Origin: Alphaproteobacteria bacterium
Lineage (GTDB): Bacteria > Pseudomonadota > Alphaproteobacteria > Puniceispirillales > Puniceispirillaceae
DNA length: 56,462 nt
NCBI GenBank assembly: GCA_009920665.1
Contig: RFZL01000012.1
Location: 1-56,462, forward strand
Direction of reading: 5' to 3'
Below are positions 2,959 through 20,507 of this stretch, one piece after another. A model generated the notes under the pieces. That model did not search any database, was not told where the DNA came from, and worked only from the letters and a program-made list of their open reading frames with translations. The position numbers and the translations under genes were made by a program. Position 1 is the stretch's first letter, and each line of letters starts with the position of its first letter.

Positions 2959-3576
2959 TCATGAACGTCGCGGGAAGGCCATCTCCGGCTTGTAGCTGGC
3001 GAAGGAGTCCAGCGTCTGGCGGTTGCATTGTTCCTGCCGGTCGGTGCCTGGCTGGACCGCGGTGATCACCGGGAAGCTGGCCCGGTAACCGGCGGTGCGC
3101 TCATTATCCTCCATGGCGATGGTGGCGATTCCGGCGACAATACCGTGCTGGCGTTCGACAAGGCGGATCGCGCCGTCCATCGTGCCACCTGTCTCGACCC
3201 ACTGGTCGACCAGCAGGACGCGTGTGCCGCTGGCGAAGGCCGGGGTGCGCATCTCCATGTCCTGTGTCCGGCCCGAATAGTTGGTGAAGGACACGGCGTC
3301 GGTGTCGACACACAGCTTGCCGGCCTTGCGGATGGGAAGGAACCCGACGCCGATCCGCGTCGCGAGGGCGGCACCCAGAACAAATCCCATGGCATCGAGC
3401 CCGGCCACCACGTCGCATTCCACCCCTTCGAGCTCGGCCGTGAGATCGTCGAGAAGCTGTGTGAAGGCGTCGCCATTGATATAGATCGAGGTCGGGTCGA
3501 GCCAGGCGAATTTCTCGCCCTTCGTGTTCGGTGACATGATGTCGAGATACCAGCGCTCGGCGTTCCTGTCGGTCAT
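2959..3576 (-). CDS. adenine-phosphoribosyltransferase-like PRTase
   Basis: A 205-residue type I phosphoribosyltransferase. These enzymes join a nucleobase to PRPP, or run the reverse reaction. The PRPP loop is at about residues 120-132, VLLVDQWVETGGT; the second Asp of the usual DD pair is Gln here. A FDAMGF-like segment (GLDAMGFVLGAALATRIGVGFLPIRKAGKL, about 59-88) matches the Apt subgroup. It overlaps the upstream BtpA-like gene by four bases (ATGA), so the two form an operon divergent from the ABC importer at 4.5 kb. The substrate cannot be read from sequence; a purine or modified base is likely. Confidence 0.8.
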   Translation of the reverse strand: MTDRNAERWYLDIMSPNTKGEKFAWLDPTSIYINGDAFTQLLDDLTAELEGVECDVVAGLDAMGFVLGAALATRIGVGFLPIRKAGKLCVDTDAVSFTNYSGRTQDMEMRTPAFASGTRVLLVDQWVETGGTMDGAIRLVERQHGIVAGIATIAMEDNERTAGYRASFPVITAVQPGTDRQEQCNRQTLDSFASYKPEMAFPRRS

Positions 3577-4316
3577 GATGTGGCTCCCATTTCATGGCAT
3601 ATGTCGACAAGGCGCGCCAGACGCGCCGGGTCGATCCTGTAGAAATCACCCTCGATATTAATCCCGGTCGCGACCATAAAACAATCGACCATGGCATAGG
3701 TGCGGGCATTCTCGGGCGTGATCCCGGAGGCAAGCGCGATCGGCCTGTCGGGAAGTGACCGGCGGAACTGGTCAAGCTTGCCGATATCGGCCGATTTGCC
3801 GGTGGCGATCCCCGATGTCGTCACCACATCCATGTAATTGCCGGCGATGGCGGCGGCGCGCGCATGGTCCTGCGGGTCGACAGGTCGCTGCTTCTTGAAG
3901 GCGGTGCCACCGAAATACAGACCGTTCCAGCCACAGTCGCGGCGTATAGCGGCGATCTCATCGGCCTCTTCCTGGCTTTCGGTGCGCTCGTCGATGCGCG
4001 CATCATCGGCCCAGTAGGCATCGATCGGGGTGCCACGCGCGCCCAGTTCGGCCAGGATCGGAAACGCTTCCAGACCTGTCACGGCCAGAAAATTCAGCCC
4101 GATCCAGAAATCCGGGTAGCGGGTGCGAATCGCCTCGATGATGGGCAGGAAGGGCCCGATTCCGAAATCATGATTGATCAGAAAACACCCGTTCAGGCCG
4201 GCATCGACCACATGGTCGATATTCGCCGCTGTCAGGCTCTCGTCAAGGACATGGATGACAGGCAGAATCACCGGGCCTGGGCTGTCAAAAATTGTATGAA
4301 ATTCAGATGCCTGCAT
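3573..4316 (-). CDS. BtpA/SgcQ-like TIM-barrel protein
   Basis: A 247-residue cytoplasmic TIM-barrel protein. The C-terminal phosphate-binding-like region ALASGITPENARTYAMVD (about 194-211) followed by VATGINIEGDFYRIDP resembles BtpA (a photosystem I biogenesis factor) and SgcQ. The N-terminal strand PVILPVIHVLDE and the DYWADD-like region (IDAYWADDARIDERTESQEE) also fit. The family has no firm enzymatic role. Its four-base overlap with a phosphoribosyltransferase gene suggests a joint step on a nucleobase, ribosyl or ribosyl-phosphate compound, which is inference. It is the first gene of the minus-strand pair. Confidence 0.65.
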   Translation of the reverse strand: MQASEFHTIFDSPGPVILPVIHVLDESLTAANIDHVVDAGLNGCFLINHDFGIGPFLPIIEAIRTRYPDFWIGLNFLAVTGLEAFPILAELGARGTPIDAYWADDARIDERTESQEEADEIAAIRRDCGWNGLYFGGTAFKKQRPVDPQDHARAAAIAGNYMDVVTTSGIATGKSADIGKLDQFRRSLPDRPIALASGITPENARTYAMVDCFMVATGINIEGDFYRIDPARLARLVDICHEMGATS

Positions 4317-4508
4317 TGCGTCTCTACTGATTCCGGAAGGCCTTGGGGCAGGTCGGAATTTGCGTCACCACGGTGCAAAATAAGCACATGCTGACCAGCT
4401 TCAGACCGGATAAATTCGCTCTTGGCGCTTTACACGAGCATAAATCTGCTCATGCTGGAATGCAATCGGCGACCGGTCAGGCGCGGTACTATCAAGGGAG
4501 TAACCATA

Positions 4509-5585
4509 ATGAAATCCACAGCTAACCTTTTCGGCTCGAAACTGTCACGTCGCAAGGCGCTGACCTATGGTGCGGCAACCGCGCTTTCGACCCCCTTCAT
4601 CTCGCGGGCCTGGGCCGCGCCGACCGAGATCAACATGCTGGCATGGTACGGCCATGGCGAGCCGGACGTTGTCGCCGAGTTCGAGGCGGCCAACAACGTC
4701 AAGTTCAAGCCGAAATACTATGCCGGTGGTGACAACATGCTGGGGCTGATCGCGCAATCGCCCCCGGGTACCTATGATGTCATCCTGTCAGACGGCGAGT
4801 TCGTGCAGCAGTTGAACGCGGCCGGATATATCGAGGAGCTGAACGCCGCGGATTATCCGTTCGACGACATGCTCTATGAGGATTTCACCAAATTCCCCGG
4901 ACACTGGAAGGATGGCAAGCTCTATTCGATGATGGTGCGCTGTGGCCATCTTGGCGTGTCCTATAACAAGAACGCCATCACCGCCGAGGAGGCGATGAGC
5001 TATGAATGCTTCTGGAAGCCGGAGGTCAAGGGCAAGGTCGGTCATTTCGACTGGCACCTGCCGAGCCTTGGCATGATGAGCCTGTATAACGGCAATGGCG
5101 CCGGGCTGTGGGACCTGTCGGATTTCGATTATGGCGGAACCTTCAACTCGCTGAAGAATGGCGAGATGCTGGCGATGTGCGGCATCGGTGACTGGATCAC
5201 CGGTGTTCTGGAAAAGGATGGCGCGCCCGTCGGGTCGGTGGTGCCGAAAGAAGGCGGGATCCAGTGGACCGAGTCCTATTGCATCGGCAAGGGCACTGAA
5301 AAGGCCGACATCGTCAAGAAGTTCATCCAGTACATGCTGTCGGCCGAAGGTCAGGTGAAATCGGCGCAGATGGCGGCCTATCCCGGCTTTGCCATCACCA
5401 AAAGCGGCCGCGCCAGACTGATCGAGGTCGACCGGGCGGAGGCCGAGCGTACCGGCCAGATCGACGGAATGGCGAATGATCCGATCACGCTGGTCAAGGA
5501 AGGCCGCATCCACTACCGGAACATTCCGGTGCAGCAGACGCTCGAGGACTGGAACGATTTCTGGTCCGAATACAAGAACGCCTGA
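4509..5585 (+). CDS. polyamine-type ABC transporter substrate-binding protein (Tat exported)
   Basis: A 358-residue periplasmic binding protein of the PotD/spermidine-putrescine family (type 2 fold). The N-terminus has a twin-arginine signal (LSRRKALTYGAATALSTPF at residues 12-30, cleavage probably after AWA near residue 36), so it is probably exported folded. The conserved hinge and pocket regions MLAWYGH, YDVILSDGEFVQQL and GDWITGV are present. ATG 4509 is chosen because AAGGGAG lies just upstream; an in-frame start farther upstream has no such site. It is the first gene of an importer operon. The ligand need not be a polyamine: the operon ends with nucleobase-type hydrolases. Confidence 0.88.
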   Translation: MKSTANLFGSKLSRRKALTYGAATALSTPFISRAWAAPTEINMLAWYGHGEPDVVAEFEAANNVKFKPKYYAGGDNMLGLIAQSPPGTYDVILSDGEFVQQLNAAGYIEELNAADYPFDDMLYEDFTKFPGHWKDGKLYSMMVRCGHLGVSYNKNAITAEEAMSYECFWKPEVKGKVGHFDWHLPSLGMMSLYNGNGAGLWDLSDFDYGGTFNSLKNGEMLAMCGIGDWITGVLEKDGAPVGSVVPKEGGIQWTESYCIGKGTEKADIVKKFIQYMLSAEGQVKSAQMAAYPGFAITKSGRARLIEVDRAEAERTGQIDGMANDPITLVKEGRIHYRNIPVQQTLEDWNDFWSEYKNA

Positions 5586-5667: not shown

Positions 5668-6549
5668 ATGAGTGACTCCACCCCCGCCAAAGCCGCGTCA
5701 TCCGCCGCGCGGCAATCCTCGGTTTTCAAACTGACATTCCGGCTGCCAATCATCATCTGGCAGTCGCTGTTCTTCATTGGCCCGCTCTGCTTCATGGTGG
5801 CGATGTCCTTCTTCATCGTCCGCAATTACCGGATGCAGGAGGATTTCGTGATGAAGAACTGGCTCAAGATGTTGGGCCGGGACTATTTCTGGGACAGCTA
5901 TTTCCTGACCTGGGGCCTCGCCGGCATCGGCACTGTCGTGACAATGCTGGTGGCCTTTCCCGCCGCCTACACGCTGGCCTTCAAGGTCAGCGAGACGGTG
6001 CGGCGCTGGGCCATCTTCATGCTCATCATCCCGTTCTTCACAAGCTATCTTGTGCGGATTTTCTCCTGGTATGTGATTCTCGCCGAAAGCGGCGTGATCA
6101 ATGCCGGCCTCAGCTATCTCGGGCTTGGCCCGTTCGTCATGCTGAACACCAAATTCGGCACCGTTGTCGGCTATATGACGTTGACCCTGCCGCTGGTGAT
6201 CATCCTGCAGACCTTCGCACTGGCCAATATCGACAAATCGCTTGTCGAGGCGGCGTTCAATCTTGGATGCCGGCCGTTCCGCACGATCTACCGGGTGATC
6301 CTGCCGATGGCGCGCACCGGTCTGATCATCGCCGCGGTATTCTGTTTCATCCTGTCCTTCGGTGATTTTGTCAGCCCCTATTATCTTGGTGGCTCGAAAC
6401 CGCCGACGTTGCCGATCCTGATCGTCGACACGGTCAAGTCGGGCCAGCAATGGCCGCGCGCCGCGGTGGTGGCGGTGGTGATGATGGTGACGCTGTTCGT
6501 GGTTGCCTTTGCCGGTATCATGGCGGCCTATCGACGGAGGGTCGGATGA
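5668..6549 (+). CDS. ABC transporter permease, PotB type
   Basis: Inner-membrane permease of about 293 residues with roughly six transmembrane helices. The first is near residues 26-48 (IIWQSLFFIGPLCFMVAMSFF) and a large N-terminal periplasmic loop follows. The cytoplasmic EAA loop reads SLVEAAFNLGCRPFRTIYRVILP (about 191-213), which contacts the ATPase. It resembles PotB/PotH. ATG 5668 is used; a GTG at 5665 in the same frame is possible. The 3' end overlaps the next permease by four bases. Confidence 0.9.
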   Translation: MSDSTPAKAASSAARQSSVFKLTFRLPIIIWQSLFFIGPLCFMVAMSFFIVRNYRMQEDFVMKNWLKMLGRDYFWDSYFLTWGLAGIGTVVTMLVAFPAAYTLAFKVSETVRRWAIFMLIIPFFTSYLVRIFSWYVILAESGVINAGLSYLGLGPFVMLNTKFGTVVGYMTLTLPLVIILQTFALANIDKSLVEAAFNLGCRPFRTIYRVILPMARTGLIIAAVFCFILSFGDFVSPYYLGGSKPPTLPILIVDTVKSGQQWPRAAVVAVVMMVTLFVVAFAGIMAAYRRRVG

Positions 6550-7340
6550 GTGACAACCGCCCTCTGCGCTGGTTTCTCTATGGCTATCTGGCGCTTGTCT
6601 TCACCTTTGTCTTCGCGCCGATCCTGTTCAGTGTGATCTTCTCGTTCAATTCCGACCGGTTCCCGACAATCCCGCTCGGCAGCTTCACCCTGAAATGGTA
6701 CCAGACGGTGTGGAACGACCCCGATGTCTGGGAGGCGGCACGCACCAGCCTGACCGTCTCGCTGTCGACGGCGACCATCGCCACGCTGCTTGGCTTTGCC
6801 ACCGCCTATACCGACTATCGCTACAGTTTCCGCCTGAAGCCGATCTATCTGGGGCTTGTGCTGCTGCCGCCGACAATCCCGCTGATCATCATGGCGCTGG
6901 CGATGCTGGCCTGGTTTGCCAAGCTCGGCATTTCGGGGCAGGTGATGTCGATCATCATCGCGCATAGTGTCCTGACAGCGCCGTTTGCGATGGCGATCAT
7001 CCGCCTGCGGCTCAGCCAGATGGACCCAAGTCTTGAATCCGCCGCATGGAACCTTGGCGCCAGCCAGTGGAGCGCGTTGCGCCGGGTCATCGTGCCGTTC
7101 TGCCGGCCGGCCATCATCTCGTCCTTCTGCCTGACGGCGGCGGTGTCGTTCGATGAATTCGCCATTTCATGGTTTGTCGCCGGCCTCAACAAGACGATCC
7201 CGGTGATCATTCTCGAAATTGTCACCGGCAATATCGACCCGCAGGTCAACGCCATCGGCAGTTTTGTTTTCCTGGTCTCGATGACGCTGGTTATCATTGC
7301 GCAGGTGGTGCTGATGACCCGCCGCAAAAAGGAAGTGTGA
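6546..7340 (+). CDS. ABC transporter permease, PotC type
   Basis: A 264-residue second permease of the importer, PotC/PotI-like. Six hydrophobic helices are visible, beginning with WFLYGYLALVFTFVFAPILF. The EAA loop is SLESAAWNLGASQWSALRRVIVP (about 161-183). The true start is ATG 6546, giving MSDNRPLRW and an ATGA overlap with the previous stop; the open frame extends upstream but would intrude into the first permease. It would pair with the PotB-like subunit to form the channel. Confidence 0.9.
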   Translation: MSDNRPLRWFLYGYLALVFTFVFAPILFSVIFSFNSDRFPTIPLGSFTLKWYQTVWNDPDVWEAARTSLTVSLSTATIATLLGFATAYTDYRYSFRLKPIYLGLVLLPPTIPLIIMALAMLAWFAKLGISGQVMSIIIAHSVLTAPFAMAIIRLRLSQMDPSLESAAWNLGASQWSALRRVIVPFCRPAIISSFCLTAAVSFDEFAISWFVAGLNKTIPVIILEIVTGNIDPQVNAIGSFVFLVSMTLVIIAQVVLMTRRKKEV

Positions 7341-7344
7341 TTTC

Positions 7345-8433
7345 ATGGTGGCTCCCCTCGTTGAATTCAGGTCGGTGGTAAAACGCTTCGACGATTTCGT
7401 GGCTGTCGAGCGGGTGAATTTCACCATCGAGGCCGGTGAGTTCGTCGCCATCATGGGCCCGTCAGGCTGTGGCAAGACGACAACCTTGCGGATGCTTGCC
7501 GGGCTGGAGGCCCCGTCGGAGGGCGAGGTGCTGATGGAAGGCCGGGTGATGAATGATGTGCCGGCGCATGAACGCGACACACCACTTGTCTGGCAGTCGC
7601 TGGCGCTGTTTCCGTTCCTGAATGCCCGTGAGAATGTCGAGTTCGGCCTGCAGATGCGTGGTGTGGAGGCGGCGGAGCGACGGCGGCGGGCCCTGGAATG
7701 GCTCGACCGGATGGAAATCGCGGAATTCGCCGAACGTGATATCGCCAGCCTGTCGGGCGGCCAGAAACAGCGTGTTGCGCTGGCGCGCTCCCTGGTCATC
7801 GAGCCGCGGATCCTGCTTCTTGACGAGCCGCTCTCGGCGCTGGATGCCAATCTGGTGATCCGTATGCAGTCGGTGCTGACAAAGCTCCAGCGCGAGCTTG
7901 GCATCACCTTCGTCTATGTCACGCATTCGCAGTCCGAGGCCTTTGCCATGGCGGACCGGGTGGTGATCATGTCGCGCGGGCATATCGCGCAGATCGGATC
8001 GCCGAAGGATATCTACCGGGCGCCGGCAAACCGTTTCGTGGCCGAATTTGTCGGGCGCAACAACATCATCACCGGCACCGTCAGCAAGGCCACCGCGAAA
8101 GCCGTGACCATTGACGGCAGCCTCGGCAGTTTCACGGTTGATCTCGGGCAGCATGAAAAGCCGCAAAAGGGCGACACCGCCCGGTTTGTCGTCGCGGCCG
8201 ACCTGGCGCAGATCTCGACCGCGAAGCCGCGCCGCGGCAGCGCCATCGCCTGTTCGCTGATCTCCGAGGAATTCATTGGCTCGGTCGTGACATTGTTCCT
8301 CGAGGCGGAGGATGGCAGCGAGTTGAAAGTCCAGCTTCAGGAGCGCGAGCTGTCGAAAATGGATCTGAAATCGGCGGCCACGATCTATCTCAGCTGGGCG
8401 TCGGACCAGGCGCATTATATCGGCGCGGACTGA
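7345..8433 (+). CDS. ABC transporter ATP-binding protein, PotA type
   Basis: A 362-residue ATPase that powers the importer. Walker A is GPSGCGKTT (residues 38-46), the signature is LSGGQKQR (136-143), Walker B is LLLDEP (157-162), and the switch His lies in VTHSQSEA. A C-terminal TOBE-type domain (from about residue 240) fits the Pot/Mal subfamily. The Q-loop region reads LVWQSLALFPFL rather than the common QSYALFPH. It starts four bases after the permease stop. Confidence 0.93.
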   Translation: MVAPLVEFRSVVKRFDDFVAVERVNFTIEAGEFVAIMGPSGCGKTTTLRMLAGLEAPSEGEVLMEGRVMNDVPAHERDTPLVWQSLALFPFLNARENVEFGLQMRGVEAAERRRRALEWLDRMEIAEFAERDIASLSGGQKQRVALARSLVIEPRILLLDEPLSALDANLVIRMQSVLTKLQRELGITFVYVTHSQSEAFAMADRVVIMSRGHIAQIGSPKDIYRAPANRFVAEFVGRNNIITGTVSKATAKAVTIDGSLGSFTVDLGQHEKPQKGDTARFVVAADLAQISTAKPRRGSAIACSLISEEFIGSVVTLFLEAEDGSELKVQLQERELSKMDLKSAATIYLSWASDQAHYIGAD

Positions 8434-8469: not shown

Positions 8470-9357
8470 ATGATCCAGAACCCGGTGCCATGGCCGAACG
8501 GCGCGCGATGCGCCTGTGTGATTTCCTTCGACATGGATGCGGACAGCCTGATCCATATTGCCAGGCCCGAAGATGCGCATGACCGGCTCTACCCGATCAG
8601 CATGGGTCGCTATGGCCCGACGGTCGCGATCCCGCGCATTCTCGATACCTACCGCCGGTTCGGCATCCAGCAATCCTTCTTCCTTCCCGGCTGGTGCGTC
8701 GAGACCTATCCGAAGGCTGTCGAGGCGATTCTCGAGGGTGGTCATGAAATCGGCCATCACGGCTATCTGCATGAGGACCCGATCGAAGCGCCCGACCAGC
8801 GTTACTGGTTCGAGCGCGCGCTGGCGGCCTACCGGAAATATTGTGGCGGCACGCCGGCCGGCTACCGGGCACCGGTCTACAACATCAACCAGGAGGTGGT
8901 CGATCTTCTTGTCGAGCACGGGTTCCGCTATGAATCCTCGATGATGGCGGACGATATTCCCTATCGTGTCGAGACGGCGTCAGGCGGGTTCTGGGAAATG
9001 CCGGTCCATTGGGGCACCGATGACTGGCCACCTTTCGCGCATTATGCCGAGATCGGCTATATGATGCCGGTGAAGGCGCCATCGGCCGGGCTTGGCGCCT
9101 TCTGGGAGGAGTTCGACGCCGCCTATGAGGCTGGCGGCTTCTTCATGCTGATTATCCATCCCTTCCTTACCGGCAGGCTGGCGCGCTGGCGCCAGGTCGA
9201 GGCGTGGCTGGAGGAAACGCTGCGCACAAAGGATGTCTGGTTCGCCCGGCTTGACCAGATTGCCGATCATCTGGACGGGCTTGTGGCGCGCGGCGACTAC
9301 ACCCCGCGCGTTGAACATCTTCCCTATTACACCGAACCCCAGGGTGGTGACCGGTAG
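8470..9357 (+). CDS. polysaccharide-deacetylase-fold hydrolase (possible cyclic imidase)
   Basis: A 295-residue CE4/NodB-fold metal hydrolase without a signal peptide, so cytoplasmic. The metal motif is visible as Asp21/Asp23/Asp25 in SFDMDAD and His97/His101 in HHGYLHE. RAPVYNIN (about 133-140) and the late IIHPFLTGR also fit. This cytoplasmic subgroup includes PuuE-type allantoinases and bacterial cyclic imide hydrolases rather than true polysaccharide deacetylases. Its place between an importer and a cytosine deaminase supports ring opening of a cyclic imide or hydantoin-like compound; that is inference. Confidence 0.75.
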   Translation: MIQNPVPWPNGARCACVISFDMDADSLIHIARPEDAHDRLYPISMGRYGPTVAIPRILDTYRRFGIQQSFFLPGWCVETYPKAVEAILEGGHEIGHHGYLHEDPIEAPDQRYWFERALAAYRKYCGGTPAGYRAPVYNINQEVVDLLVEHGFRYESSMMADDIPYRVETASGGFWEMPVHWGTDDWPPFAHYAEIGYMMPVKAPSAGLGAFWEEFDAAYEAGGFFMLIIHPFLTGRLARWRQVEAWLEETLRTKDVWFARLDQIADHLDGLVARGDYTPRVEHLPYYTEPQGGDR

Positions 9358-9389
9358 GCCGGATCAGGCCGAAAAGACAGGAGAGCGTG

Positions 9390-9839
9390 ATGATGACCGA
9401 AGCCGACAGGCAGATGCTGACCATCGCCTATGAAGAGGCAAGGAAGGGCTTTGACGAGGGTGGCTGCCCGATTGGCTCGGTGCTGGCGCGCGACGGGCAG
9501 GAAGTGTCACGCGGCCACAATCAGCGGGTGCAGCAGGGTGACCCGATCGCGCATGGCGAGATGGACGCGCTGCGCAAGGCCGGCCGCCAGCGGACCTATC
9601 GCGACACGGTTCTCTACACCACCCTCAGCCCCTGCATGATGTGCAGTGGCACCATTGTGCAGTTTGGCATCCCGCGCGTGGTTGTTGGTGAAAACACCAC
9701 CTTTGGCGGCAATGAGGATTTTCTGCGCGCGCACGGGGTCGAGGTGGTGATCGCCGACGATCCCGACTGTATCGCGCTGATGAAGCGCTTCATCCGCGAG
9801 AAACCCGAGCTCTGGGCCGAGGATATCGCCGAGGACTAG
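9390..9839 (+). CDS. cytosine deaminase, yeast FCY1 type
   Basis: A 149-residue zinc deaminase of the CDA superfamily. Zinc site: His55 and Glu57 in AHGEMDAL, Cys82 and Cys85 in SPCMMC. Beyond the zinc site it closely resembles Saccharomyces FCY1: AYEEARKGFDEGGCPIG, RGHNQR, DTVLYTTLSPC, GIPRVVVGEN, HGVEVVIADD and the C-terminal ELWAEDI all have clear counterparts there. Likely reaction: cytosine to uracil and ammonia. Most bacteria use the unrelated CodA. ATG 9390 is chosen because GGAG lies about seven bases upstream. Last gene of the Pot-type importer operon; its product would feed the reductive uracil pathway encoded next door. Confidence 0.85.
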   Translation: MMTEADRQMLTIAYEEARKGFDEGGCPIGSVLARDGQEVSRGHNQRVQQGDPIAHGEMDALRKAGRQRTYRDTVLYTTLSPCMMCSGTIVQFGIPRVVVGENTTFGGNEDFLRAHGVEVVIADDPDCIALMKRFIREKPELWAEDIAED

Positions 9840-9954: not shown

Positions 9955-10944
9955 TTACAGAGCCTTGTCGGTGATCATGTGCGTCCAGGCACCGGACGGC
10001 TTCTTGGTGATCACCGGATCCGAACCGCCCTTCATCAGCGTGGCAACCGTGCGCTCGTAATCGGCCGGTGCCAGAGCGCCGTTCGAACCGGCGGTCAGCT
10101 TGGCGATCTCACGCATCATCCGGCGCTGATGTTTCTCGGTCTGGGCGCCGCTGGCGTCATTGTCAAGAACGATGTCAGCTGCCGCGTCAGGGTTGCTCTC
10201 GGCCCATTTCCAGCCCTTCATCGAGGCGCGGACAAAGCGGACCATCTTGTCCTGGAAGGCGGCGTCCTTCAGCCGGTCCTCAAGGACATAGAGCCCGTCC
10301 TCAAGTGTCGCCACGCCCTGATCCTGATATTTGAAGACGACCAGTTCATCCGGGGTCAGCCCGGCATCGATGATCTGCCAGTATTCGTTATAGGTCATCG
10401 TCGAGACGCATTCGGCCTGCTTCTGCAGGATCGGGTCGACATTGAAGCCCTGCTTCAGGACATTCACGCCGCCGCCGCTGCCATCGGTCGGAATGTCAAG
10501 CTGGCTCATCCATGACAGGAACGGATACTCGTTGCCGAAGAACCAGACGCCAAGTGTCTTGCCGCGGAAATCGGCCGGCGACTTGATGCCGGAATCCTTG
10601 CGGCATGTCAGCATCATGCCCGAGGATTTGAAGGGTTGTGCGATGTTGACAAGGTTCACGCCCCTTTCGCGTGATGCCAGCGCCGATGGCATCCAGTCGA
10701 TCACCACATCGGCGCCGCCACCGGCGATCACCTGTACAGGCGAAATATCAGGTCCGCCCGGCTTGATGGTGACGTCGAGGCCCTCCTCGGCGTAGAAGCC
10801 CTGATCGGCGGCGACGAAATAGCCGGCGAACTGTGCCTGGGTGACCCATTTCAACTGTAATGTCAGCTTGTCCGCCGCGCTTGCCGCCGTGCCCATGGCA
10901 AGGCTCGCGGCAAGTGCCAGCAGGGTTGTCAGTGTCTTTTTCAT
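9955..10944 (-). CDS. NMT1/SsuA-type ABC substrate-binding protein, probable pyrimidine uptake
   Basis: A 329-residue periplasmic binding protein of the NMT1/THI5-like (SsuA/ThiY) family. It has a Sec signal peptide (residues 1 to about 23, LLALAASLAMGTAASA), then LTLQLKWVTQAQFAGYFVA, typical of this family's pyrimidine-related members. The family binds sulfonates, taurine or thiamine pyrimidine precursors. Operon partners (dihydropyrimidinase, carbamoyl-beta-alanine hydrolase, RutR) argue for a pyrimidine, dihydropyrimidine or hydantoin ligand. It is the last gene of the operon, with its own terminator just after. Confidence 0.85.
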   Translation of the reverse strand: MKKTLTTLLALAASLAMGTAASAADKLTLQLKWVTQAQFAGYFVAADQGFYAEEGLDVTIKPGGPDISPVQVIAGGGADVVIDWMPSALASRERGVNLVNIAQPFKSSGMMLTCRKDSGIKSPADFRGKTLGVWFFGNEYPFLSWMSQLDIPTDGSGGGVNVLKQGFNVDPILQKQAECVSTMTYNEYWQIIDAGLTPDELVVFKYQDQGVATLEDGLYVLEDRLKDAAFQDKMVRFVRASMKGWKWAESNPDAAADIVLDNDASGAQTEKHQRRMMREIAKLTAGSNGALAPADYERTVATLMKGGSDPVITKKPSGAWTHMITDKAL

Positions 10945-10977: not shown

Positions 10978-12078
10978 TTATGGGGTCTTCCGGCGGTTTG
11001 AGGGGTGCCAGAAGGTGACCTGCCGTTCAAGCAGGCTGAGAAGGCCGTAGCTGAGTGATCCGGCGAGGGCGGCGACAACGATTTCCGCCCACACCATATC
11101 GACATTCATCCGACCGACTTCGGTCGAGATACGAAAGCCAAGGCCAACAATCGGGGTTCCGAAGAACTCGGCAACGATAGCACCGATCAGCGCCAGTGTG
11201 GAATTGATCTTCAGCGCGTTGAAGATGAAGGGCGCCGCGGTCGGCAGCCGTAACTTGATCAGCAGCTGGAAATAGGATGAGGCATAGGTGCGAAGCAGGT
11301 CGCGTTCCATCGCCTGCGTTGCCTGCAGCCCGGCAACCGTATTCACCAGCATCGGGAAGAAGGTCATCACCACAACCACGGCGGCTTTCGACTGCCAGTC
11401 AAAGCCGAACCACATCACCATGATCGGTGCGATCCCGACAATCGGCAACGCCGAGACGAAATTTCCGACCGGCAGCAGGCCGCGTTGCAGAAACGGCACA
11501 CGGTCAATCAGGATGGCGACCATGAAGGCGCTGCCACAGCCGAGGATATAACCGCTGAGTGCCGCCTTGATGACGGTCTGCTGGAAATCGGCCCAGAGGA
11601 TGGAGGTCGATTCGGCAAACCGCACCGCGATCATCGAAGGCGGCGGCAGCAGGACCGTCGGGATCTGCAGGCCGATAGTCAGCACCTCCCAGGCAAAGAT
11701 GATCCAGGCGCCGAAAAAGACCGGCACCGCCAGCGACAGGACGGATGACAGTGCTTTTGGCAGGTTTCGTGCCGCCATCGTCTTTTCGACCGCCAGCCAG
11801 CCGAACAGCCAGCAGGCGATCAGCAACGGCCAGCTTGCCGTCGGCATGTCGCCATCGAGACGCGACAGCAACAGCGCCATGCCACCAAGGCTGGCGACAA
11901 GATCGACCCGCGCCTGCGGCCACAGGCTGAAATGATGCCGCATCCCGGCAAGGGCAAGGACAAGGCTGGCTGCGAGCAACGCGATGCCGGCCTCGCCGCT
12001 GCCGATGAAGGCGATCACCAGCGCTGCCGCGGCGGCGAGGCCCCCAAGGGTGGCGATGGTGCGCTGAAAACCGGTCAT
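10978..12078 (-). CDS. ABC permease with extra N-terminal membrane region
   Basis: A 366-residue permease of the SsuC/ThiX class. The usual family length is about 250-280. The first roughly 100 residues add extra hydrophobic segments (TIATLGGLAAAAALVIAFIG, ALLAASLVLALAGM, SWPLLIACWLFGWLAV) before the conserved permease core. The EAA-type loop is MERDLLRTYASSYFQLLIKLRLP (about 248-270). It overlaps the neighbouring permease by four bases (ATGA) and precedes the binding-protein gene by 33 bases. Confidence 0.88.
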   Translation of the reverse strand: MTGFQRTIATLGGLAAAAALVIAFIGSGEAGIALLAASLVLALAGMRHHFSLWPQARVDLVASLGGMALLLSRLDGDMPTASWPLLIACWLFGWLAVEKTMAARNLPKALSSVLSLAVPVFFGAWIIFAWEVLTIGLQIPTVLLPPPSMIAVRFAESTSILWADFQQTVIKAALSGYILGCGSAFMVAILIDRVPFLQRGLLPVGNFVSALPIVGIAPIMVMWFGFDWQSKAAVVVVMTFFPMLVNTVAGLQATQAMERDLLRTYASSYFQLLIKLRLPTAAPFIFNALKINSTLALIGAIVAEFFGTPIVGLGFRISTEVGRMNVDMVWAEIVVAALAGSLSYGLLSLLERQVTFWHPSNRRKTP

Positions 12079-12950
12079 GCCCGCAGCCCCATGCGCCGCA
12101 GCGTCAGATGGCTGATCACGCCCACAACACCGACAAGGATCGCCGCCATGCAGGCCGCCGAGATCAGCGCTGACCAGATCTGGATTGTCTGGCCGTAATA
12201 GGACCCGGCCAGCAGCCGCGCGCCAAGCCCGGCCACCGCGCCAGTCGGCAATTCACCAACGATCGCGCCAACAAGGCTGATCGCAATGGCGACCTTCATC
12301 GAGGCGAACAGGAATGGCACCGAGGCGGGAAGCCGCAACTTCCAGAAGGTCTGCAGCCGCGATGAGCGGTAGGTGCGCATCAGATCCATCAGCATCGGGT
12401 CGGGACTGCGCAGCCCCTTGACCATCCCGACAACGACCGGGAAGAAGCTGAGATAGGTGGAAATCATCGCTTTCGGCACCAGCCCTGACAGACCGACAGC
12501 GTTCAGCACGACGATGATCATCGGGGCGATGGCCAGGATCGGGATTGTCTGGCTGGTGATGATCCAGGGCATCAGCGACTTGTCCATCGCCCGGTTCTCC
12601 ACAATCGACACCGCCAGCCCGATGCCGAGGATTGTCCCCATGGCGAAGCCGAGCAGGGTCGAGGACAGGGTGACGCTGCCATGATAGATGAGTGAGCGTT
12701 TCGAGGTGATTTTCTTCTTCACCGTGGTCTTCCAGATCTCGGCGACAATCTGGTGCGGCGCCGGCAGGACCGGGCGTTCCTGCGCCATCGTATCGCGCAC
12801 AAGATCGCGCATCTGCCATTCGGTGCCGGCCTTTTCATAGCGGTCGATCTGCCAGGGCGCGTTCAGATGCACGGTGAACCCGTACCAGATGATCATGATC
12901 GCGGCGACCACGACAGCAATTGGCGCCACCCTGTTGACCATGCCCGTCAC
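12075..12950 (-). CDS. ABC permease of the pyrimidine-type importer
   Basis: A 291-residue SsuC/ThiX-class permease forming the likely heterodimeric channel with the neighbouring gene product. It has an N-terminal helix (VAPIAVVVAAIMIIWYG), a long hydrophilic periplasmic stretch to about residue 80, then the five-helix core. The EAA loop reads MLMDLMRTYRSSRLQTFWKLRLP (about 193-215). Its stop overlaps the next permease start by four bases. Confidence 0.9.
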   Translation of the reverse strand: MTGMVNRVAPIAVVVAAIMIIWYGFTVHLNAPWQIDRYEKAGTEWQMRDLVRDTMAQERPVLPAPHQIVAEIWKTTVKKKITSKRSLIYHGSVTLSSTLLGFAMGTILGIGLAVSIVENRAMDKSLMPWIITSQTIPILAIAPMIIVVLNAVGLSGLVPKAMISTYLSFFPVVVGMVKGLRSPDPMLMDLMRTYRSSRLQTFWKLRLPASVPFLFASMKVAIAISLVGAIVGELPTGAVAGLGARLLAGSYYGQTIQIWSALISAACMAAILVGVVGVISHLTLRRMGLRA

Positions 12951-13004
12951 CGCAGCACCCCTCCGGTGGTATGCCGGCAGGCACGGCAGTGATGTGTCCG
13001 GCTC

Positions 13005-13799
13005 CTAGTCATAGGAATGCCCCTCGCGAAGGCCGTTGCGGACACGTTGCGCGATTTCAAGGAAGCGTTTGGATTCCCGGATATCGAGCGGGCGCTCGGC
13101 CGGCAGGTCGGATTCGATGATGTCGGTCACCCGGCCGGGGCGCGGCGACATCACGACGATGCGGGTCGACAGATAGACCGCCTCGGGAATGGAATGGGTA
13201 ACGAAGCAGATCGTCTTGCCGGTCTTCTTCCACAGCTGCAGCAGTTGTTCGTTCAGATGGTCGCGGACAATCTCGTCAAGCGCGCCGAAGGGTTCGTCCA
13301 TCAGCAGCAGTTCGGCATCAAAGGCAAGCGCCCGCGCGATGGATGCACGCTGCTGCATGCCGCCCGACAGCTGCCAGGGGAATTTCCGGCCGAAGCCGTC
13401 AAGCCCGACCAGTTCCAGCGTCCGCTTCACGCGTTCGGCCTGTTCGGCACGGCTGATACCCATGATTTCCAGCGGCAGGCCGATATTGCGCTCGATCGTC
13501 CGCCAGGCCAGCAGCGCCGGTGCCTGGAAGACATAGCCATAGGCACCGGCCAGGCGCGCCTCCTCGGGTGTCTTGCCGTTCACCGAGATCGCCCCGCCGG
13601 TTGGATGTTCCAGATCGGCAATGACCCGTAGCAGGGTGGTCTTGCCACATCCCGACGGGCCGATGAAGGACACGAAATCACCCTTCTCGATGGTCAGGTC
13701 GACATCCTTCAGCGCATGCACAGGCCCGTCATTCGAATCGAAAGTCAGACAGAGCCGGTCTGCCCGGATCGCCGGTATGCTGTTGCTATCCTGTGACAT
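13005..13799 (-). CDS. ABC ATPase of the pyrimidine-type importer
   Basis: A 264-residue ATPase of the nitrate/sulfonate/taurine (SsuB/TauB) group. Walker A is GPSGCGKTT (47-55), signature LSGGMQQR (144-151), Walker B LLLMDEP (164-170), and the switch His lies in CFVTHSIPEA. It sits between the permeases and the dihydropyrimidinase gene, transcribed from the common promoter near 16.9 kb. Confidence 0.93.
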   Translation of the reverse strand: MSQDSNSIPAIRADRLCLTFDSNDGPVHALKDVDLTIEKGDFVSFIGPSGCGKTTLLRVIADLEHPTGGAISVNGKTPEEARLAGAYGYVFQAPALLAWRTIERNIGLPLEIMGISRAEQAERVKRTLELVGLDGFGRKFPWQLSGGMQQRASIARALAFDAELLLMDEPFGALDEIVRDHLNEQLLQLWKKTGKTICFVTHSIPEAVYLSTRIVVMSPRPGRVTDIIESDLPAERPLDIRESKRFLEIAQRVRNGLREGHSYD

Positions 13800-13881: not shown

Positions 13882-15336
13882 TCAGACCCCGGCCGGCATG
13901 TTGGCCGGGTCCCGGATGACCGCGCGCGGTGCCGTCAGCTCCTTCCACTTCGACAGCGCCTTGTTGGTCGCCGAGAAGGGCTCGCGGGGCACGAACTTGC
14001 CATGGCCCTCGCGGGTCTTCACCTCATCCTCCTGGATCGCTACATAGCCGCGGGTCATCGTGAAGCGCGGCAGGCCCTTGACCTTGAAGCCCTCGAACAC
14101 ATTGTAGTCGATCGCCGATTGCTGCGCGCCATGCGAGATGGTCTTCTCGCGCGCCGGGTCAAGGACAACGATATCGGCATCGGCGCCTTCCAGAATGGCA
14201 CCCTTGCGCGGATACAGGTTCAGTGCCTTGGCGATGTTGGTCGAGGTCGCGGCAACGAACTCGTTCATCGTCAGGCGACCTGTCCCCACACCATAGGTCC
14301 AGAGCAGCGGCATCCGGTCCTCGAGGCCGCCGGTGCCGTTCGGGATCTTGGTGAAGTCGCCAAGGCCATAGCGCTTCTGCTCGGTGGTGAAGGCACAATG
14401 ATCTGTGGCGACGACCTGCAGGCTACCGGCCTGGAGCCCCGCCCACAGGCTGTCCTGGTGCAGCTTGTTGCGGAAGGGCGGCGACATCACGCGCTGCGCG
14501 GCATGGTCCCAGTTCGGGTTGGCATATTCGCTCTCGTCAAGCAGCAGATGCTGGATCAGCGGCTCGCCATAGACCCGCATGCCCTTCTGGCGCGCGCGCC
14601 GGATCGCCTCATGCGCCTGCTCGCAGGACACATGCACGACATAGAGTGGCACACCCGCCATGTCGGCGATCATGATGGCGCGGTTGGTGGCCTCGCCCTC
14701 GACCTCGGGGGGGCGTGAATAGGCGTGCGCCTCCGGCCCGTTATTGCCGTCTTCCATCAGCTTGGCCTGCAATTGCGCGACGACATCGCCATTCTCGGCA
14801 TGCACCAGCGGCATCGCGCCAAGCTCGGCGCAGCGCTGGAAGCTGGCATACATCTCGTCATCATCAACCATAAGTGCGCCCTTATAGGCCATGAAATGCT
14901 TGAAGGTGTTGATCCCCTTTTTCACCACTTCAGGCATTTCATTGAACACCTGCTCGCCCCACCAGGTGATCGCCATATGGAAGGAATAGTCGGTTGTGGC
15001 GCGCGAGGATTTGTTGTCCCAGGCCTGGATTGCGGTCAGCAGCGACTGGTCGGGTGCCGGCAGGCAGAAATCGACCACCATCGTGGTGCCGCCGGACAGC
15101 GCGGCGCGGGTGCCGGATTCAAAATCATCGGTTGAATAGGTGCCCATGAACGGCATTTCGAGATGCGTGTGCGGGTCGATGCCGCCGGGCATCACATAGC
15201 AACCGGTGGCATCCAGCGTTTCATTGCCGGACAGCCCTTCGCCGATCTTTGTTATCTTGCCGTTCTCGACAAGAACATCGGCCTTGTAGGTGCGGTCGGC
15301 GGTGACGATGGTTCCATCCTTGATGACGGTGCTCAT
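13882..15336 (-). CDS. pydB: dihydropyrimidinase (D-hydantoinase family)
   Basis: A 484-residue amidohydrolase that opens dihydrouracil to N-carbamoyl-beta-alanine, step two of reductive pyrimidine breakdown. The binuclear zinc site is visible: His56 and His58 in IDPHTHLEMPF, the lysine expected to be carbamylated at about residue 152 (FMAYKG), His in LVHAEN and VVHVSC, and Asp in VATDHCAF. Length matches dihydropyrimidinases. ATG 15336 follows the upstream amidohydrolase by 15 bases. The family also contains hydantoinases, but PreA, PreT and RutR next door make the pyrimidine role most likely. Confidence 0.93.
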   Translation of the reverse strand: MSTVIKDGTIVTADRTYKADVLVENGKITKIGEGLSGNETLDATGCYVMPGGIDPHTHLEMPFMGTYSTDDFESGTRAALSGGTTMVVDFCLPAPDQSLLTAIQAWDNKSSRATTDYSFHMAITWWGEQVFNEMPEVVKKGINTFKHFMAYKGALMVDDDEMYASFQRCAELGAMPLVHAENGDVVAQLQAKLMEDGNNGPEAHAYSRPPEVEGEATNRAIMIADMAGVPLYVVHVSCEQAHEAIRRARQKGMRVYGEPLIQHLLLDESEYANPNWDHAAQRVMSPPFRNKLHQDSLWAGLQAGSLQVVATDHCAFTTEQKRYGLGDFTKIPNGTGGLEDRMPLLWTYGVGTGRLTMNEFVAATSTNIAKALNLYPRKGAILEGADADIVVLDPAREKTISHGAQQSAIDYNVFEGFKVKGLPRFTMTRGYVAIQEDEVKTREGHGKFVPREPFSATNKALSKWKELTAPRAVIRDPANMPAGV

Positions 15337-15351: not shown

Positions 15352-16632
15352 TCAATCATCGACGATTCCGGCGGTTTCGACGACGGCATGGAACAACACG
15401 TCGGCGCCCGCGGTCGCCCAGTCCTTGGTTATGTCTTCGGCTTCATTGTGCGACAGCCCGTCGACACATGGACACATTATCATGGCTGTCGGCGCGACGC
15501 GGTTGATCCAGCAGGCGTCATGGCCGGCGCCGGACACGATGTCGCGATGCGAATATCCCAGCCTTTCGGCGGCACGGCGGATGGCGCCGACGCAGCCATC
15601 ATCGAATTCGACCGGGTCGAACTTGCCGGCCTGCTCGATCTCCATCTGCAGACCGATTTCGTCGCAGATCTCTTTTGCGCCGGCGCGCAGCCGCGCTTCC
15701 ATATCGTCGATCACCTCCTGCTTCGGGTGCCGGAAATCGATCGTGAAGACAACCTTGCCGGGGATGATGTTGCGTGAGTTCGGATAGACATCGCAGTGGC
15801 CGACGGCACCAACGGCGAGCGGGGCGTGCGACCAGGCGATTTCATCGACAAGCTGCGTGATTCGCGCCATGCCGAGCCCGGCATTGACGCGTTTCGGCAT
15901 CGGTGTCGATCCGGTATGCGCCTCCTTGCCGGTCAGGGTGACCTGCAGCCAGTTCAGCCCCTGCCCGTGCGTGACGACGCCGATGTCGATTGCTTCATCC
16001 TCGAGGATCGGCCCCTGTTCGATATGCAGCTCGAAGAAGGCGGCCAGCTTGCGCGCGCCGACCTCCTCATCGCCGATCCAGCCGATGCGGGCCAGCTCAT
16101 CGCCAACGGTCTTGCCGCCGGCATCGGTGCGGCCATAGGCCCAGTCAAGCGTATGCACGCCGGCAAAGACGCCCGAGGCCATCATCGGCGGTGAAAAGCG
16201 GGTGCCTTCCTCATTCGTCCAGTTGACCACCTCGATCGGGTGGCGCGTCCTGATGCCGGTCTCGTTCAGCGTGCGGATGATCTCCAGCCCGGCAAGGACA
16301 CCCAGAACGCCGTCATATTTGCCGCCGGTTGGCTGCGTATCGAGATGGCTGCCGACCATCACCGGCGGCAGCGACGCATCGGTGCCCTCGCGGCGGGCGA
16401 ACATGGTGCCCATCTTGTCGAGTCCCATCTGCAGCCCCTCGGCCTCGCACCAGGCCTGGTAGAGCCGGCGTCCCTCGGCATCCTCGTCGGTCAGGGTCTG
16501 GCGGTTGTTGCCGCCGGCAACCCCGGGGCCGATCTTCGCCATTTCCATGAGCGATTCCCACAGCCGCTCGCCATTGATCCGGAAATTCTTGCCGCGCTGA
16601 TCCATCATCGTGCTGTTCATGTCGGAAGCCAT
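15352..16632 (-). CDS. pydC: N-carbamoyl-beta-alanine amidohydrolase (M20 Zn-hydrolase)
   Basis: A 426-residue M20-family zinc amidohydrolase, step three of reductive pyrimidine breakdown (N-carbamoyl-beta-alanine to beta-alanine, CO2 and ammonia). Visible motifs are GSHLDTQPTGGKYDG (His/Asp ligands), NEEGTRFSPPM (catalytic Glu and ligand), ELHIEQGP, and GAGHDACWI near the C-terminus. ATG 16632 (MASDMN) is chosen because AGGAAGG lies just upstream; an open frame runs 21 codons farther but lacks a site. It is the first gene of the operon, next to the RutR box. Confidence 0.9.
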   Translation of the reverse strand: MASDMNSTMMDQRGKNFRINGERLWESLMEMAKIGPGVAGGNNRQTLTDEDAEGRRLYQAWCEAEGLQMGLDKMGTMFARREGTDASLPPVMVGSHLDTQPTGGKYDGVLGVLAGLEIIRTLNETGIRTRHPIEVVNWTNEEGTRFSPPMMASGVFAGVHTLDWAYGRTDAGGKTVGDELARIGWIGDEEVGARKLAAFFELHIEQGPILEDEAIDIGVVTHGQGLNWLQVTLTGKEAHTGSTPMPKRVNAGLGMARITQLVDEIAWSHAPLAVGAVGHCDVYPNSRNIIPGKVVFTIDFRHPKQEVIDDMEARLRAGAKEICDEIGLQMEIEQAGKFDPVEFDDGCVGAIRRAAERLGYSHRDIVSGAGHDACWINRVAPTAMIMCPCVDGLSHNEAEDITKDWATAGADVLFHAVVETAGIVDD

Positions 16633-16980
16633 TTGCCGTTTCCTTCCTGTTTTTATCCGTTCCGATGCCGGTGTTTCCAGTCCGCCGTCATGCAATGGAT
16701 GCCCGGCGCGCCGGACAACATGCGCGGGGTGGCTGCTTGCAGGTTTGCCGGTTGCAGATTGGTATTGTCAGGCATTGTGGCACACTCCCTCAGCATCGCG
16801 AGGCTTTTGAAATGCGGGCAGGCCCGCTGGTCGACCGTCTCGGCTGTCTGGCCGGGTTGACCTTCCACGACCGGGGTGGAAACGGTGTCACAAAAATTAT
16901 GAAATATCATTTTTACCGTTTGGTCAAATATCTTAGGATGGCGTGGCGCGAAAAAATAATTTGTCGCGGAATGGGGACAC
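16633..16980. promoter_or_regulatory. divergent promoter region between pydC and rutR-like gene
   Basis: A 348-base region without a credible gene. Its right half (about 16880-16940) is AT-rich, unlike the surroundings, and holds a RutR-type palindrome at 16912-16927. Both the minus-strand pyrimidine operon and the plus-strand regulator gene must start here. I could not fix -10 and -35 boxes with certainty. Confidence 0.7.
16912..16927. promoter_or_regulatory. RutR-type operator
   Basis: The 16-mer TTTACCGTTTGGTCAA matches the published E. coli RutR consensus TTGACCA-N2-TGGTCAA at 12 of 14 defined positions; the right half is perfect. It lies 54 bases upstream of the RutR-like gene and 280 bases upstream of pydC, which fits autoregulation and repression of the operon until uracil is present. 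Confidence 0.75.
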
Positions 16981-17646
16981 ATGACAGGTAACGCGAAGCT
17001 GCGCGCCGCGGAAAAGCCGACTGGCAGCAAGACCCGGATCCAGAAGGAAAACGAAACGCGGATATTGCGGGCCGCCCTCGATGTCTTTTCCGAAAGCGGT
17101 TTTCACGGGGCGACGCTTGACCGTATCGCCAGCGAGGCCAGCATGTCAAAACCGAACCTGCTCTATTATTTCAAGAGCAAGGAGGAAATCCACATCGCGC
17201 TGCTGACCGGTTTGCTGGATGTCTGGCTGGCGCCGCTGCGGGAAATACGCCCCGACGGCGATCCGGTTGATGAAATCGGGTCCTACATCCGGCGCAAGCT
17301 GGAGTCCTCGCACAGCTTCCCGCGCGAATCACGGCTGTTCGCGAACGAGATCCTCGCCGGTGCGCCGCATATCGGCGGATTCCTGCAGACCGAGTTGAAA
17401 CAGCTTGTCGAGGAAAAGGCGGCGATTCTGCAAGGCTGGATTGACCAGGGGCGGATGGCCCCCTGCGACCCGCGCCATGTGCTGTTCGCCATCTGGTCGA
17501 CGACGCAGCATTACGCCGATTTCAGCGTCCAGGTGCGCCATGTCCTGGGCCTTGGCCCCGGCGACAAGAGCTATTTTGACGAGGCGGCGCGGATGCTCGA
17601 CACGCTGTTCCTCGGACAGCTGATCAGCCGGGATGGACCCGGCTGA
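16981..17646 (+). CDS. rutR: RutR-type TetR-family repressor of pyrimidine catabolism
   Basis: A 221-residue TetR-family regulator. The helix-turn-helix is at about residues 27-70 (ILRAALDVFSESGFHGATLD, then SMSKPNLLYYFKSKEE). Similarity to E. coli RutR extends through the ligand domain: LLDVWLAPL, YIRRKLESS, SRLFANEILAGAPH, IWSTTQHYADFSVQV all have direct RutR counterparts. RutR releases DNA on binding uracil (or thymine). Divergent from the pydC operon; a RutR-type box lies just upstream and another upstream of preT. Confidence 0.9.
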   Translation: MTGNAKLRAAEKPTGSKTRIQKENETRILRAALDVFSESGFHGATLDRIASEASMSKPNLLYYFKSKEEIHIALLTGLLDVWLAPLREIRPDGDPVDEIGSYIRRKLESSHSFPRESRLFANEILAGAPHIGGFLQTELKQLVEEKAAILQGWIDQGRMAPCDPRHVLFAIWSTTQHYADFSVQVRHVLGLGPGDKSYFDEAARMLDTLFLGQLISRDGPG

Positions 17647-17710: not shown

Positions 17711-19018
17711 CTATTCGGCGGCGTCCCGCATCGGATTGTTCGGATGCATCGTCCAGTTGCCATATTCGTCGGCAACCGGTTTGCCGGTGCGTTCATCCAT
17801 GTCGCCGGAGGGAATCTGCTCCATGGTGATGCAGCTTTCGACCGGGCAGACATTCACGCACAGGTTACAGCCGACACATTCCTCGTCGATCACCTCGAAG
17901 CGCCGCTCGCCATCGACCATGTTGGTGATGGCCTGGTGCGAGGTGTCCTCGCAGGCGATGTGACAGCGCCCGCATTTGATGCAGCTGTCCTGATCAATCC
18001 GCGCCTTGGTGGTATAGTTCAGGTTCAGATACTGCCACTCGGTGACGTTCGGGATGGCGCGGCCATGGATGGCGTCGAGATCGGCGTGACCGGCATTGTC
18101 CATCCACTGTTCCAGCCCCTCGACAAGATCGTCGATGATCTTGAAGCCATAGGTCATGGCGGCGGTACAGACCTGTACGTTGCCGGCCCCCAGCGTGATG
18201 AATTCGGCGGCATCGCGCCAGGTCGTGACCCCGCCGATTCCCGAGATCGGCAGCGAGGCTGTTTCCGGGTCGCGCGCGATGGCGGCCACCATGTTCAGCG
18301 CGATCGGCTTGACCGCCGGGCCGCAATAGCCGCCATGCGTTCCCTTGCCGTCGATGGTCGGCTGCGGCGCGAAGCTGTCGAGATCGACCGAGACAATCGA
18401 ACTGATGGTGTTGATCAGCGATACCGCGTCGGCACCGCCGGCATGCGCGGCGCGTGCCGGATAGCGCACATCGGTGATGTTCGGCGTCAGCTTGACGATC
18501 ACCGGCATGCGGGTGTTCGCCTTTGCCCAGCGTGTCACCATCTCGATATATTCCGGAACCTGGCCGACCGCCGCGCCCATGCCGCGCTCCGACATGCCGT
18601 GCGGGCAGCCGAAATTCAGCTCGACACCGTCGCATCCGGTATCCTCGACCTGGCGCAGGATTTCCTCCCAGCACGGCTCCTCACAGGGGACCATCAGGCT
18701 GGTCACGACGGCGCGGTCCGGCCAGTCGCGCTTCACCGACTTGATCTCCTGCAGGTTCACTTCAAGCGGCCGGTCGGTGATCAGTTCGATATTGTTCAGC
18801 CCCAGAAGCCGCCGGTCGGCACCCCAGATCGCGCCATAGCGCGGGCCGCCGACATTGACGATATGCGGGTCGAGCCCCAGCGTCTTCCAGACCACGCCAC
18901 CCCAGCCGGCCTTGAAGGCGCGGACGACGTTATATTCCTTGTCGGTCGGCGGTGCCGAGGCAAGCCAGAACGGATTGGGGGATTTGATTCCAACGAAGTC
19001 ATTTCTCAGGTCAGCCAT
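17711..19018 (-). CDS. preA: NAD-dependent dihydropyrimidine dehydrogenase subunit PreA
   Basis: A 435-residue FMN/iron-sulfur subunit that, with PreT, reduces uracil or thymine to the dihydro form (step one). The FMN-binding TIM barrel occupies about residues 1-320. The expected catalytic cysteine is Cys138 in the mobile loop NFGCPHGMSERGMG, matching the loop of mammalian DPD. Two 4Fe-4S clusters follow: Cys346/349/352/356 and Cys381/384/387/391. The preT gene lies 22 bases upstream. Confidence 0.95.
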   Translation of the reverse strand: MADLRNDFVGIKSPNPFWLASAPPTDKEYNVVRAFKAGWGGVVWKTLGLDPHIVNVGGPRYGAIWGADRRLLGLNNIELITDRPLEVNLQEIKSVKRDWPDRAVVTSLMVPCEEPCWEEILRQVEDTGCDGVELNFGCPHGMSERGMGAAVGQVPEYIEMVTRWAKANTRMPVIVKLTPNITDVRYPARAAHAGGADAVSLINTISSIVSVDLDSFAPQPTIDGKGTHGGYCGPAVKPIALNMVAAIARDPETASLPISGIGGVTTWRDAAEFITLGAGNVQVCTAAMTYGFKIIDDLVEGLEQWMDNAGHADLDAIHGRAIPNVTEWQYLNLNYTTKARIDQDSCIKCGRCHIACEDTSHQAITNMVDGERRFEVIDEECVGCNLCVNVCPVESCITMEQIPSGDMDERTGKPVADEYGNWTMHPNNPMRDAAE

Positions 19019-20384: not shown

Positions 20385-20507
20385 GTTCGTCTCCACTCGC
20401 AGCAAACCTCATCTGGGGCCGCGGCGCATGGCGCGTCTATTGGTCAACCGCCACAAACCGGAGCCACATAAAAAGATTGCCGGATAATTCGGCTTTGTCC
20501 ATTATTT

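Follow-up and report, generated by a model that had tools for sequence, protein, structure and literature searches.

An FCY1-type deaminase gene in an ABC importer operon beside uracil catabolism genes of an alphaproteobacterium

What does a deaminase resembling the fungal cytosine deaminase FCY1 do at the end of an importer operon in a bacterium? The question is raised by a stretch of 56,462 nucleotides from a member of the Puniceispirillaceae, which was analysed at its full length and is called the window below. In this operon, the genes for a substrate-binding protein, two permeases, an ATPase and a PuuE-type CE4 hydrolase are followed by the deaminase gene, and a gene pair for a phosphoribosyltransferase (PRTase) and a BtpA-like protein is oriented divergently (Table 1). 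The preliminary description had placed the deaminase in one operon with an importer and a CE4-fold hydrolase, and the row of PotD-, PotB-, PotC- and PotA-like genes, a Polysacc_deac_1 protein gene and the deaminase gene bears this out.

Table 1. Features of the window around the deaminase gene
Feature	Position	Strand	Remark
Type I phosphoribosyltransferase (Apt-like)	2959..3576	-	under all NCBIfam cut-offs
BtpA/SgcQ-like TIM-barrel protein	3573..4316	-	divergent from the operon
Importer substrate-binding protein	4509..5585	+	adjoins creatininase-linked binding proteins in the tree
Importer permease 1 (PotB/PotH-like)	5668..6549	+	125 bits, cut-off 489
Importer permease 2 (PotC-like)	6540..7340	+	179 bits, cut-off 326
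Importer ATPase (PotA-like)	7345..8433	+	PRK09452 328.7 bits, cut-off 482
CE4-fold hydrolase, PuuE-allantoinase subgroup	8470..9357	+	nearest folds 3rxz, 3cl6
FCY1-type cytosine deaminase (putative activity)	9390..9839	+	148-149 aa; 151 bits against yeast cytosine deaminase; yeast active-site residues kept
NMT1/THI5-type substrate-binding protein, second importer	9955..10944	-	PF09084 127.8 bits
Two permeases and ATPase, second importer	10978..13799	-	kept in L026 and L041
Dihydropyrimidinase	13882..15336	-	TIGR02033 592 bits, cut-off 393
Beta-ureidopropionase-type carbamoylase (M20 hydantase family)	15352..16632	-	TIGR01879 403.5 bits, cut-off 204
RutR-type palindrome TTTACCGTTTGGTCAA	16912..16927		2 mismatches
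RutR-like TetR regulator	16981..17646	+	TIGR03613 234 bits (cut-off 368), PRK15008 215 bits (cut-off 230)
Dihydropyrimidine dehydrogenase subunit PreA	17711..19018	-	NF006183 723 bits, cut-off 335
PreT-like NAD(P)-binding partner subunit	19041..20405	-	GltD-type oxidoreductase under cut-offs; named by position beside PreA

Assignment and spread of the deaminase

The open reading frame of the deaminase covers 9387-9839 (+) and opens at a GTG at 9387, but ATG 9390 or 9393 with an AGGAG-like site in front is the likely start. When compared with the PDB by phmmer, the protein aligned to yeast cytosine deaminase with 151 bits over residues 5-147 of 148. Thirteen sequences of the yeast enzyme were matched over this range, C-terminal segment included, with E-values between 2.5e-43 and 4.9e-42. 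The next match was a tRNA adenosine deaminase (best TadA: E 3.8e-19, 72 bits), covering residues 5-107 only. Over its full length, the protein ranked nearer to the yeast enzyme than to TadA, guanine or riboflavin deaminases.

In an alignment of 104 rows, which covered the window protein, yeast, the loci, two entries of E. coli TadA and two paralogues (loci L035 and L120, equal in length, being taken as one and the same contig), the window protein retains the yeast residues N51, Q55, H62, E64, C91, C94, F114, W152 and D155. They include the zinc ligands H62, C91 and C94, the catalytic E64, the substrate contacts N51 and D155 and the gate residues F114 and W152; the C-terminal lid is also present. 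Passages of PMC11000218 describe N51, E64 and D155 as ligand contacts and F114 and W152 as the gate of the yeast enzyme. The non-yeast rows have F114 in 96/103, W152 in 97/103 and D155 in 98/103 cases, and each of these positions is occupied by Lys in E. coli TadA. Yeast FCY1 (PDB 1uaq, 1ox7, 1p6o) and the window protein share full-length homology, zinc motif, substrate contacts, aromatic gate and C-terminal lid, whereas the latter comes from a bacterium, is encoded in an importer operon and is five residues shorter across three loops. It is firmly placed in the FCY1-type family by its sequence, and the likeness along the whole length, C-terminal segment included, that had been claimed for it was confirmed. 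Deamination of cytosine to uracil would be its most likely and best-supported activity.

A function as tRNA-adenosine or guanine deaminase was rejected and is extremely unlikely. The proteins belong to the same superfamily and the curated TadA model NF008113 is the best NCBIfam match, but its score of 74.3 bits is about half the 150-bit cut-off. The phmmer ranking and the retained F114, W152 and D155 also speak against it, as does a separate gene of the same genome whose product, 27% identical to the FCY1-type protein, is presumably TadA. A closer kinship to guanine or tRNA-adenosine deaminases, named beforehand as grounds for giving up the assignment, was not seen in this ranking.

FCY1-type genes are common in bacteria, with at least 591 relatives among at least 593 pattern matches listed from named genomes. 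The best 80 of these relatives were sampled as loci and belong to Alphaproteobacteria, Actinomycetes, Bacteroidota, Verrucomicrobiota, Planctomycetes and others. The contrast that the preliminary description drew with CodA as the usual bacterial enzyme is right in kind, but the rarity it suggested is at odds with these numbers. The FCY1 tree is based on few columns and has many open forks. In it, the long branch of yeast FCY1 groups with bacterial sequences (SH-aLRT 94), and we therefore draw no conclusion on the direction of transfer. In the annotated plasmid records inspected, the widespread bacterial family is labelled 'nucleoside deaminase', and the present comparison provides evidence for fungal-type cytosine deaminases within it. 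No account of a bacterial FCY1 enzyme or of this operon was found in literature listings and in passages of PMC11000218, PMC11796326, PMC8864220, PMC6742649 and PMC5343134; the finding is a known enzyme in a new setting.

Several relatives deserve mention on their own account. Records titled Oceanobacillus (L028) and Nocardioides marinus (L031) contain FCY1 proteins 81-82% identical to that of the window, which group with the alphaproteobacterial ones; mislabelled records or mixed assemblies are the probable reason. The atrazine plasmid pADP-1 (L015:6992-8110) encodes an FCY1-related deaminase with 52% identity, in which W152 is not kept; next to it is a short gene for a ring-opening amidohydrolase. 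In L042 (~9061) and L085 (~9582), FCY1 has a second, divergent deaminase-like frame immediately upstream.

Uracil pathways beside the operon

The deaminase gene ends before a cluster of reductive uracil catabolism in opposite orientation. The uracil pathway said to adjoin the deaminase is thus present, with PreA and dihydropyrimidinase over their cut-offs, but it is an adjacent, separate operon. The TetR-type regulator lies below both the TIGR03613 and the PRK15008 cut-off and is hence called RutR-like.

The operon with its divergent pair, whole or truncated where a contig or stretch ends, was found in the ten other FCY1-positive genomes of the family. The same set occurs in the Rhodobacterales/Hyphomicrobiales-type loci L033, L035 (= L120), L038 and L121, partly in L028, L036, L039 and L045, and rearranged in a gammaproteobacterial MAG (L085). 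Apart from this importer/CE4 group, the neighbours conserved across the best 80 of at least 591 loci came down to assorted ABC ATPases, SDRs and synteny within lineages. The importer-deaminase operon stands beside reductive uracil genes both in the window and in L026. In L019, L020 and L021, the genes that come after it are DUF1989, a RutR-like gene, URC1, URC4 and UPRT; the URC families were verified on L020, with URC1 GTP_CH_N (PF12471), URC4 DUF1688 (PF07958) and UPRT together. L025 contains the URC pathway in part, ending inside URC1, and in L045, a more distant Hyphomicrobiales MAG with an FCY1 of 70% identity, the operon runs into URC1-URC4-UPRT. The joining of one operon to two unrelated uracil pathways supports cytosine-to-uracil conversion as the predicted reaction.

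From these comparisons we infer the activity of the deaminase, the ligand of the importer and the direction of flow. The dedicated ABC importer, which is kin to the importers of creatinine loci, would take up cytosine or a closely similar cyclic amidine, and the zinc-containing FCY1-type deaminase would remove the exocyclic amino group as ammonia, leaving uracil. In the window, uracil would then be converted by the PreA/PreT dihydropyrimidine dehydrogenase, dihydropyrimidinase and carbamoylase to beta-alanine, CO2 and ammonia, and in sister genera it would enter UPRT, URC1 and URC4. We consider it probable that the deaminase and its importer supply the uracil pathway of the host from cytosine in this manner.

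The distribution of the genes is consistent with this proposal. Among 61 genomes of the family, FCY1 was found in 11, PreA over its cut-off in 10 (four weaker matches were left uncounted) and URC1 in 4. PreA or URC1 was present in 9/11 FCY1-positive and 5/50 FCY1-negative genomes (Fisher p 5.3e-6; within-genus permutation p 0.001), the absences being soft since many family genomes are incomplete. The two FCY1-positive genomes with neither pathway are G018 and G055 (79% and 82% complete). An NCS1 permease was detected in 0/11 FCY1-positive family genomes by a query that matched in 4/14 control genomes, and CodA of NF005748 in 0/11; for the latter, the control genomes were C. glutamicum and E. 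coli, with the cut-off pass not attributed to either. An ABC route and an FCY1 deaminase would therefore fill real gaps. For these bacteria with no detected NCS1 permease, the findings suggest an importer of the ABC type that would take up cytosine and/or creatinine.

Further contexts were found in other loci. FCY1 lies beside a CodB-type permease gene in L013, L054 and L068, the first two being over the CodB cut-off, and L054 unites PreT, PreA, RutR, carbamoylase, dihydropyrimidinase, NCS1, FCY1 and CodB in a single locus. FCY1 is adjoined by UPRT in L051 and by a BMP-type importer in L037. In total, a uracil or cytosine marker lies within ~10 kb in 6 of the 80 sampled loci (best 80 of at least 591; 7 counting the truncated dihydropyrimidinase of L041), so that most copies give no context evidence; of 20 loci placed arbitrarily, 0 had a marker, and the numbers are too small for significance. 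On the Rhodovulum plasmid pRGUI01 (L118), the same importer and the PRTase/BtpA pair are accompanied by a cytosine deaminase of the CodA type (695.7 bits, cut-off 438). It holds the corresponding operon position, although CodA is an amidohydrolase of unrelated fold and not homologous to the FCY1 type; FCY1 and CE4 genes were absent from the fetched locus.

A RutR-type box, whose consensus we take to be TTGACCANNTGGTCAA, was found exactly in L019, L020, L021 and L023, the last of which ends just past it. In L025 and L054 the box deviates at one position, and in L041 and at 16912-16927 of the window at two. At up to two mismatches, there were 2 hits in 57 other loci (1,002,508 bases). A second two-mismatch box of the window is located at 4204 inside the BtpA gene, and 14 window matches at three mismatches, mostly within genes, were left out of the analysis. 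RutR control of the importer operon was rejected, as 4300-4520 contains no box at up to two mismatches.

Ligand of the importer and role of the CE4 hydrolase

The importer had been called polyamine-type. Superfamily and gene order are indeed those of PotABCD/PotFGHI, but all components are below the curated polyamine cut-offs. For alignment, Asp168 and Glu171 were among what we take to be the ligand residues of PotD; the window has Trp and a gap there. A polyamine as substrate was rejected, with none of the components reaching a Pot equivalog cut-off (PotA-PotD).

The nearest outside relatives of the importer were found in creatininase/creatinase loci (8/9 opened). A related binding protein occurs in 22 plasmid records, of which 11 were opened. 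Eight of these (L123-L128, L130, L131) contain genes for a creatininase, in one verified case with 372 bits (cut-off 235), and for a creatinase-like M24 protein; amidase-CE4-DUF1989 is present in L129 and L115, and CodA in L118. In a tree of 25 binding proteins, 14 deaminase-linked ones form a clade of their own (100/100) next to the creatininase-linked ones, which are about 52-61% identical to that of the window; the L122 protein stands outside on a long branch. Twelve positions of the predicted pocket, aligned to the assumed PotD ligand residues or their neighbours, were inspected, and nine are identical in all 22 proteins of both groups. The earlier proposal of 'cytosine or another cyclic nitrogen compound' as ligand was a good guess, to which the nearest non-deaminase relatives would add creatinine as a candidate. 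Two loci combine the systems: L032 has a creatinase-creatininase-LysR layout with a deaminase-clade importer and an FCY1 of 81% identity, and in L122 two creatininases occur together with a BtpA-PRTase fusion and an FCY1-like protein that lacks D155.

The CE4 protein has 295 aa and scored 51.5 bits as Polysacc_deac_1 (cut-off 23.1). With a pLDDT of 75, the structure predicted for it lies closest to 3rxz (Z 27.3, 267 residues, 2.8 Å), followed by the PuuE allantoinase 3cl6 (Z 25.8, 255 residues, 3.0 Å), with three other PuuE-like chains also near. PuuE-type chains reached Z 24-27 over 250-267 residues as against 19.8 and below for ArnD and sugar deacetylases. It shares the predicted fold of the PuuE-type allantoinases but differs in sequence, being far below the cut-off of TIGR03212 (53.1 bits, cut-off 424.6). 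Judged from this model, it is likely to open cyclic amides of the hydantoin kind, which would suit N-methylhydantoin derived from creatinine and has no obvious role for cytosine. Passages of PMC8864220 tie CodA to creatinine degradation in C. glutamicum, and passages of PMC6742649 describe a cytosine deaminase as producing N-methylhydantoin from creatinine.

Creatinine, alone or with cytosine, is thus a serious rival for the importer and the CE4 enzyme. With both substrates imported, FCY1 would make uracil and N-methylhydantoin, and the CE4 enzyme would convert the latter to N-carbamoylsarcosine. We regard this as rather unlikely. It explains the creatinine-type importer with its unchanged pocket, the union of creatinase, creatininase, importer and FCY1 in L032, the kinship of the CE4 enzyme with a hydantoin-ring opener and the place of its gene directly before that of the deaminase, and it agrees with the two reports above. 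The sarcosine oxidase gene soxB, present in 11/11 FCY1-positive genomes, also fits but is uninformative, and so is hydantoinase B as a creatinine discriminator (9/11; none in G010, 96% complete). Against it, creatininase was found in 0/61 family genomes by a query that finds three in G129, and SoxA/SoxB in 0/21 deaminase loci, though among 10 creatininase loci this query hit its source locus only. Neither L032 nor L118 has the CE4 gene, and creatinine does not account for the uracil linkage and the PRTase/BtpA pair.

An FCY1 fold re-purposed for creatinine alone, with uracil genes as chance neighbours, would agree with the importer kinship, L032 and L122 but is very improbable. The yeast active site is intact, the gene is linked to two distinct uracil pathways and associated with them in the within-genus profile, and a 77% identical homologue in L041 stands beside a truncated dihydropyrimidinase gene and has no such importer. 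Counted against our preferred reading, cytosine import and deamination to uracil, are the creatinine-type importer kin, L032, the invariant pocket and the CE4 enzyme, and further the missing RutR-type box before the operon, the 6/80 loci with markers, and G018 and G055.

Among 31 plasmid records with related CE4 genes, 6 were opened; DUF1989 and an amidase/amidohydrolase gene accompany CE4 in five and SDR genes in one. In L112, L113, L114, L115, L116 and L129, a CE4 hydrolase gene is clustered with those for an amidase and DUF1989 and, in most cases, an NAD(P)H oxidoreductase, while the transporters vary (NCS1, BMP-type, Pot-type). This recurrent plasmid cluster looks like a set for cyclic-amide or imide degradation.

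The divergent PRTase/BtpA pair

The PRTase/BtpA pair lies beside the importer in 4/80 sampled loci (best 80 of at least 591) and in most family loci. The two are one reading frame in two distant bacteria, L085 (10431-11831) and L122 (9355-10737), and a PRPP synthetase gene adjoins the pair in L117. The predicted BtpA fold is a generic phosphate-binding TIM barrel (MJ1099, RPE, TrpA/TrpF, KDPGal aldolase), and PDB sequences gave no sequence match. The pair is a conserved candidate enzyme system linked to nucleobase use. This linkage, the fusions and the PRPP synthetase would fit another nucleobase-like compound, such as a modified cytosine, which the PRTase would also phosphoribosylate and BtpA would process. 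Such a substrate is very improbable, as there is no known reaction for the pair, which is absent in L032 and not visible in L045, cut by the contig end.

A module serving both cytosine and creatinine would account for the importer and the CE4 hydrolase but not for this pair. A wider reading, possible but tentative, is an exchangeable module for scavenging small cyclic amidines, in which one ABC importer of unchanged pocket, common to this system and creatinine catabolism, would feed a creatininase or interchangeable FCY1- and CodA-type deaminases, with a PuuE-like hydantoin opening upon entry of creatinine and a BtpA-PRTase phosphoribosyl step. If true, it would imply an ABC-type cytosine importer, of which none was found in literature searches, and an enzyme pair of new chemistry.

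Near the pair, the window encodes a nicotinamidase PncA (1733-2329; 212 bits, cut-off 174), which is absent there in the relatives examined. Genes of the AA_synth family (PF06684) lie on both flanks of the region, at 1086-1640 and 20625-21182.
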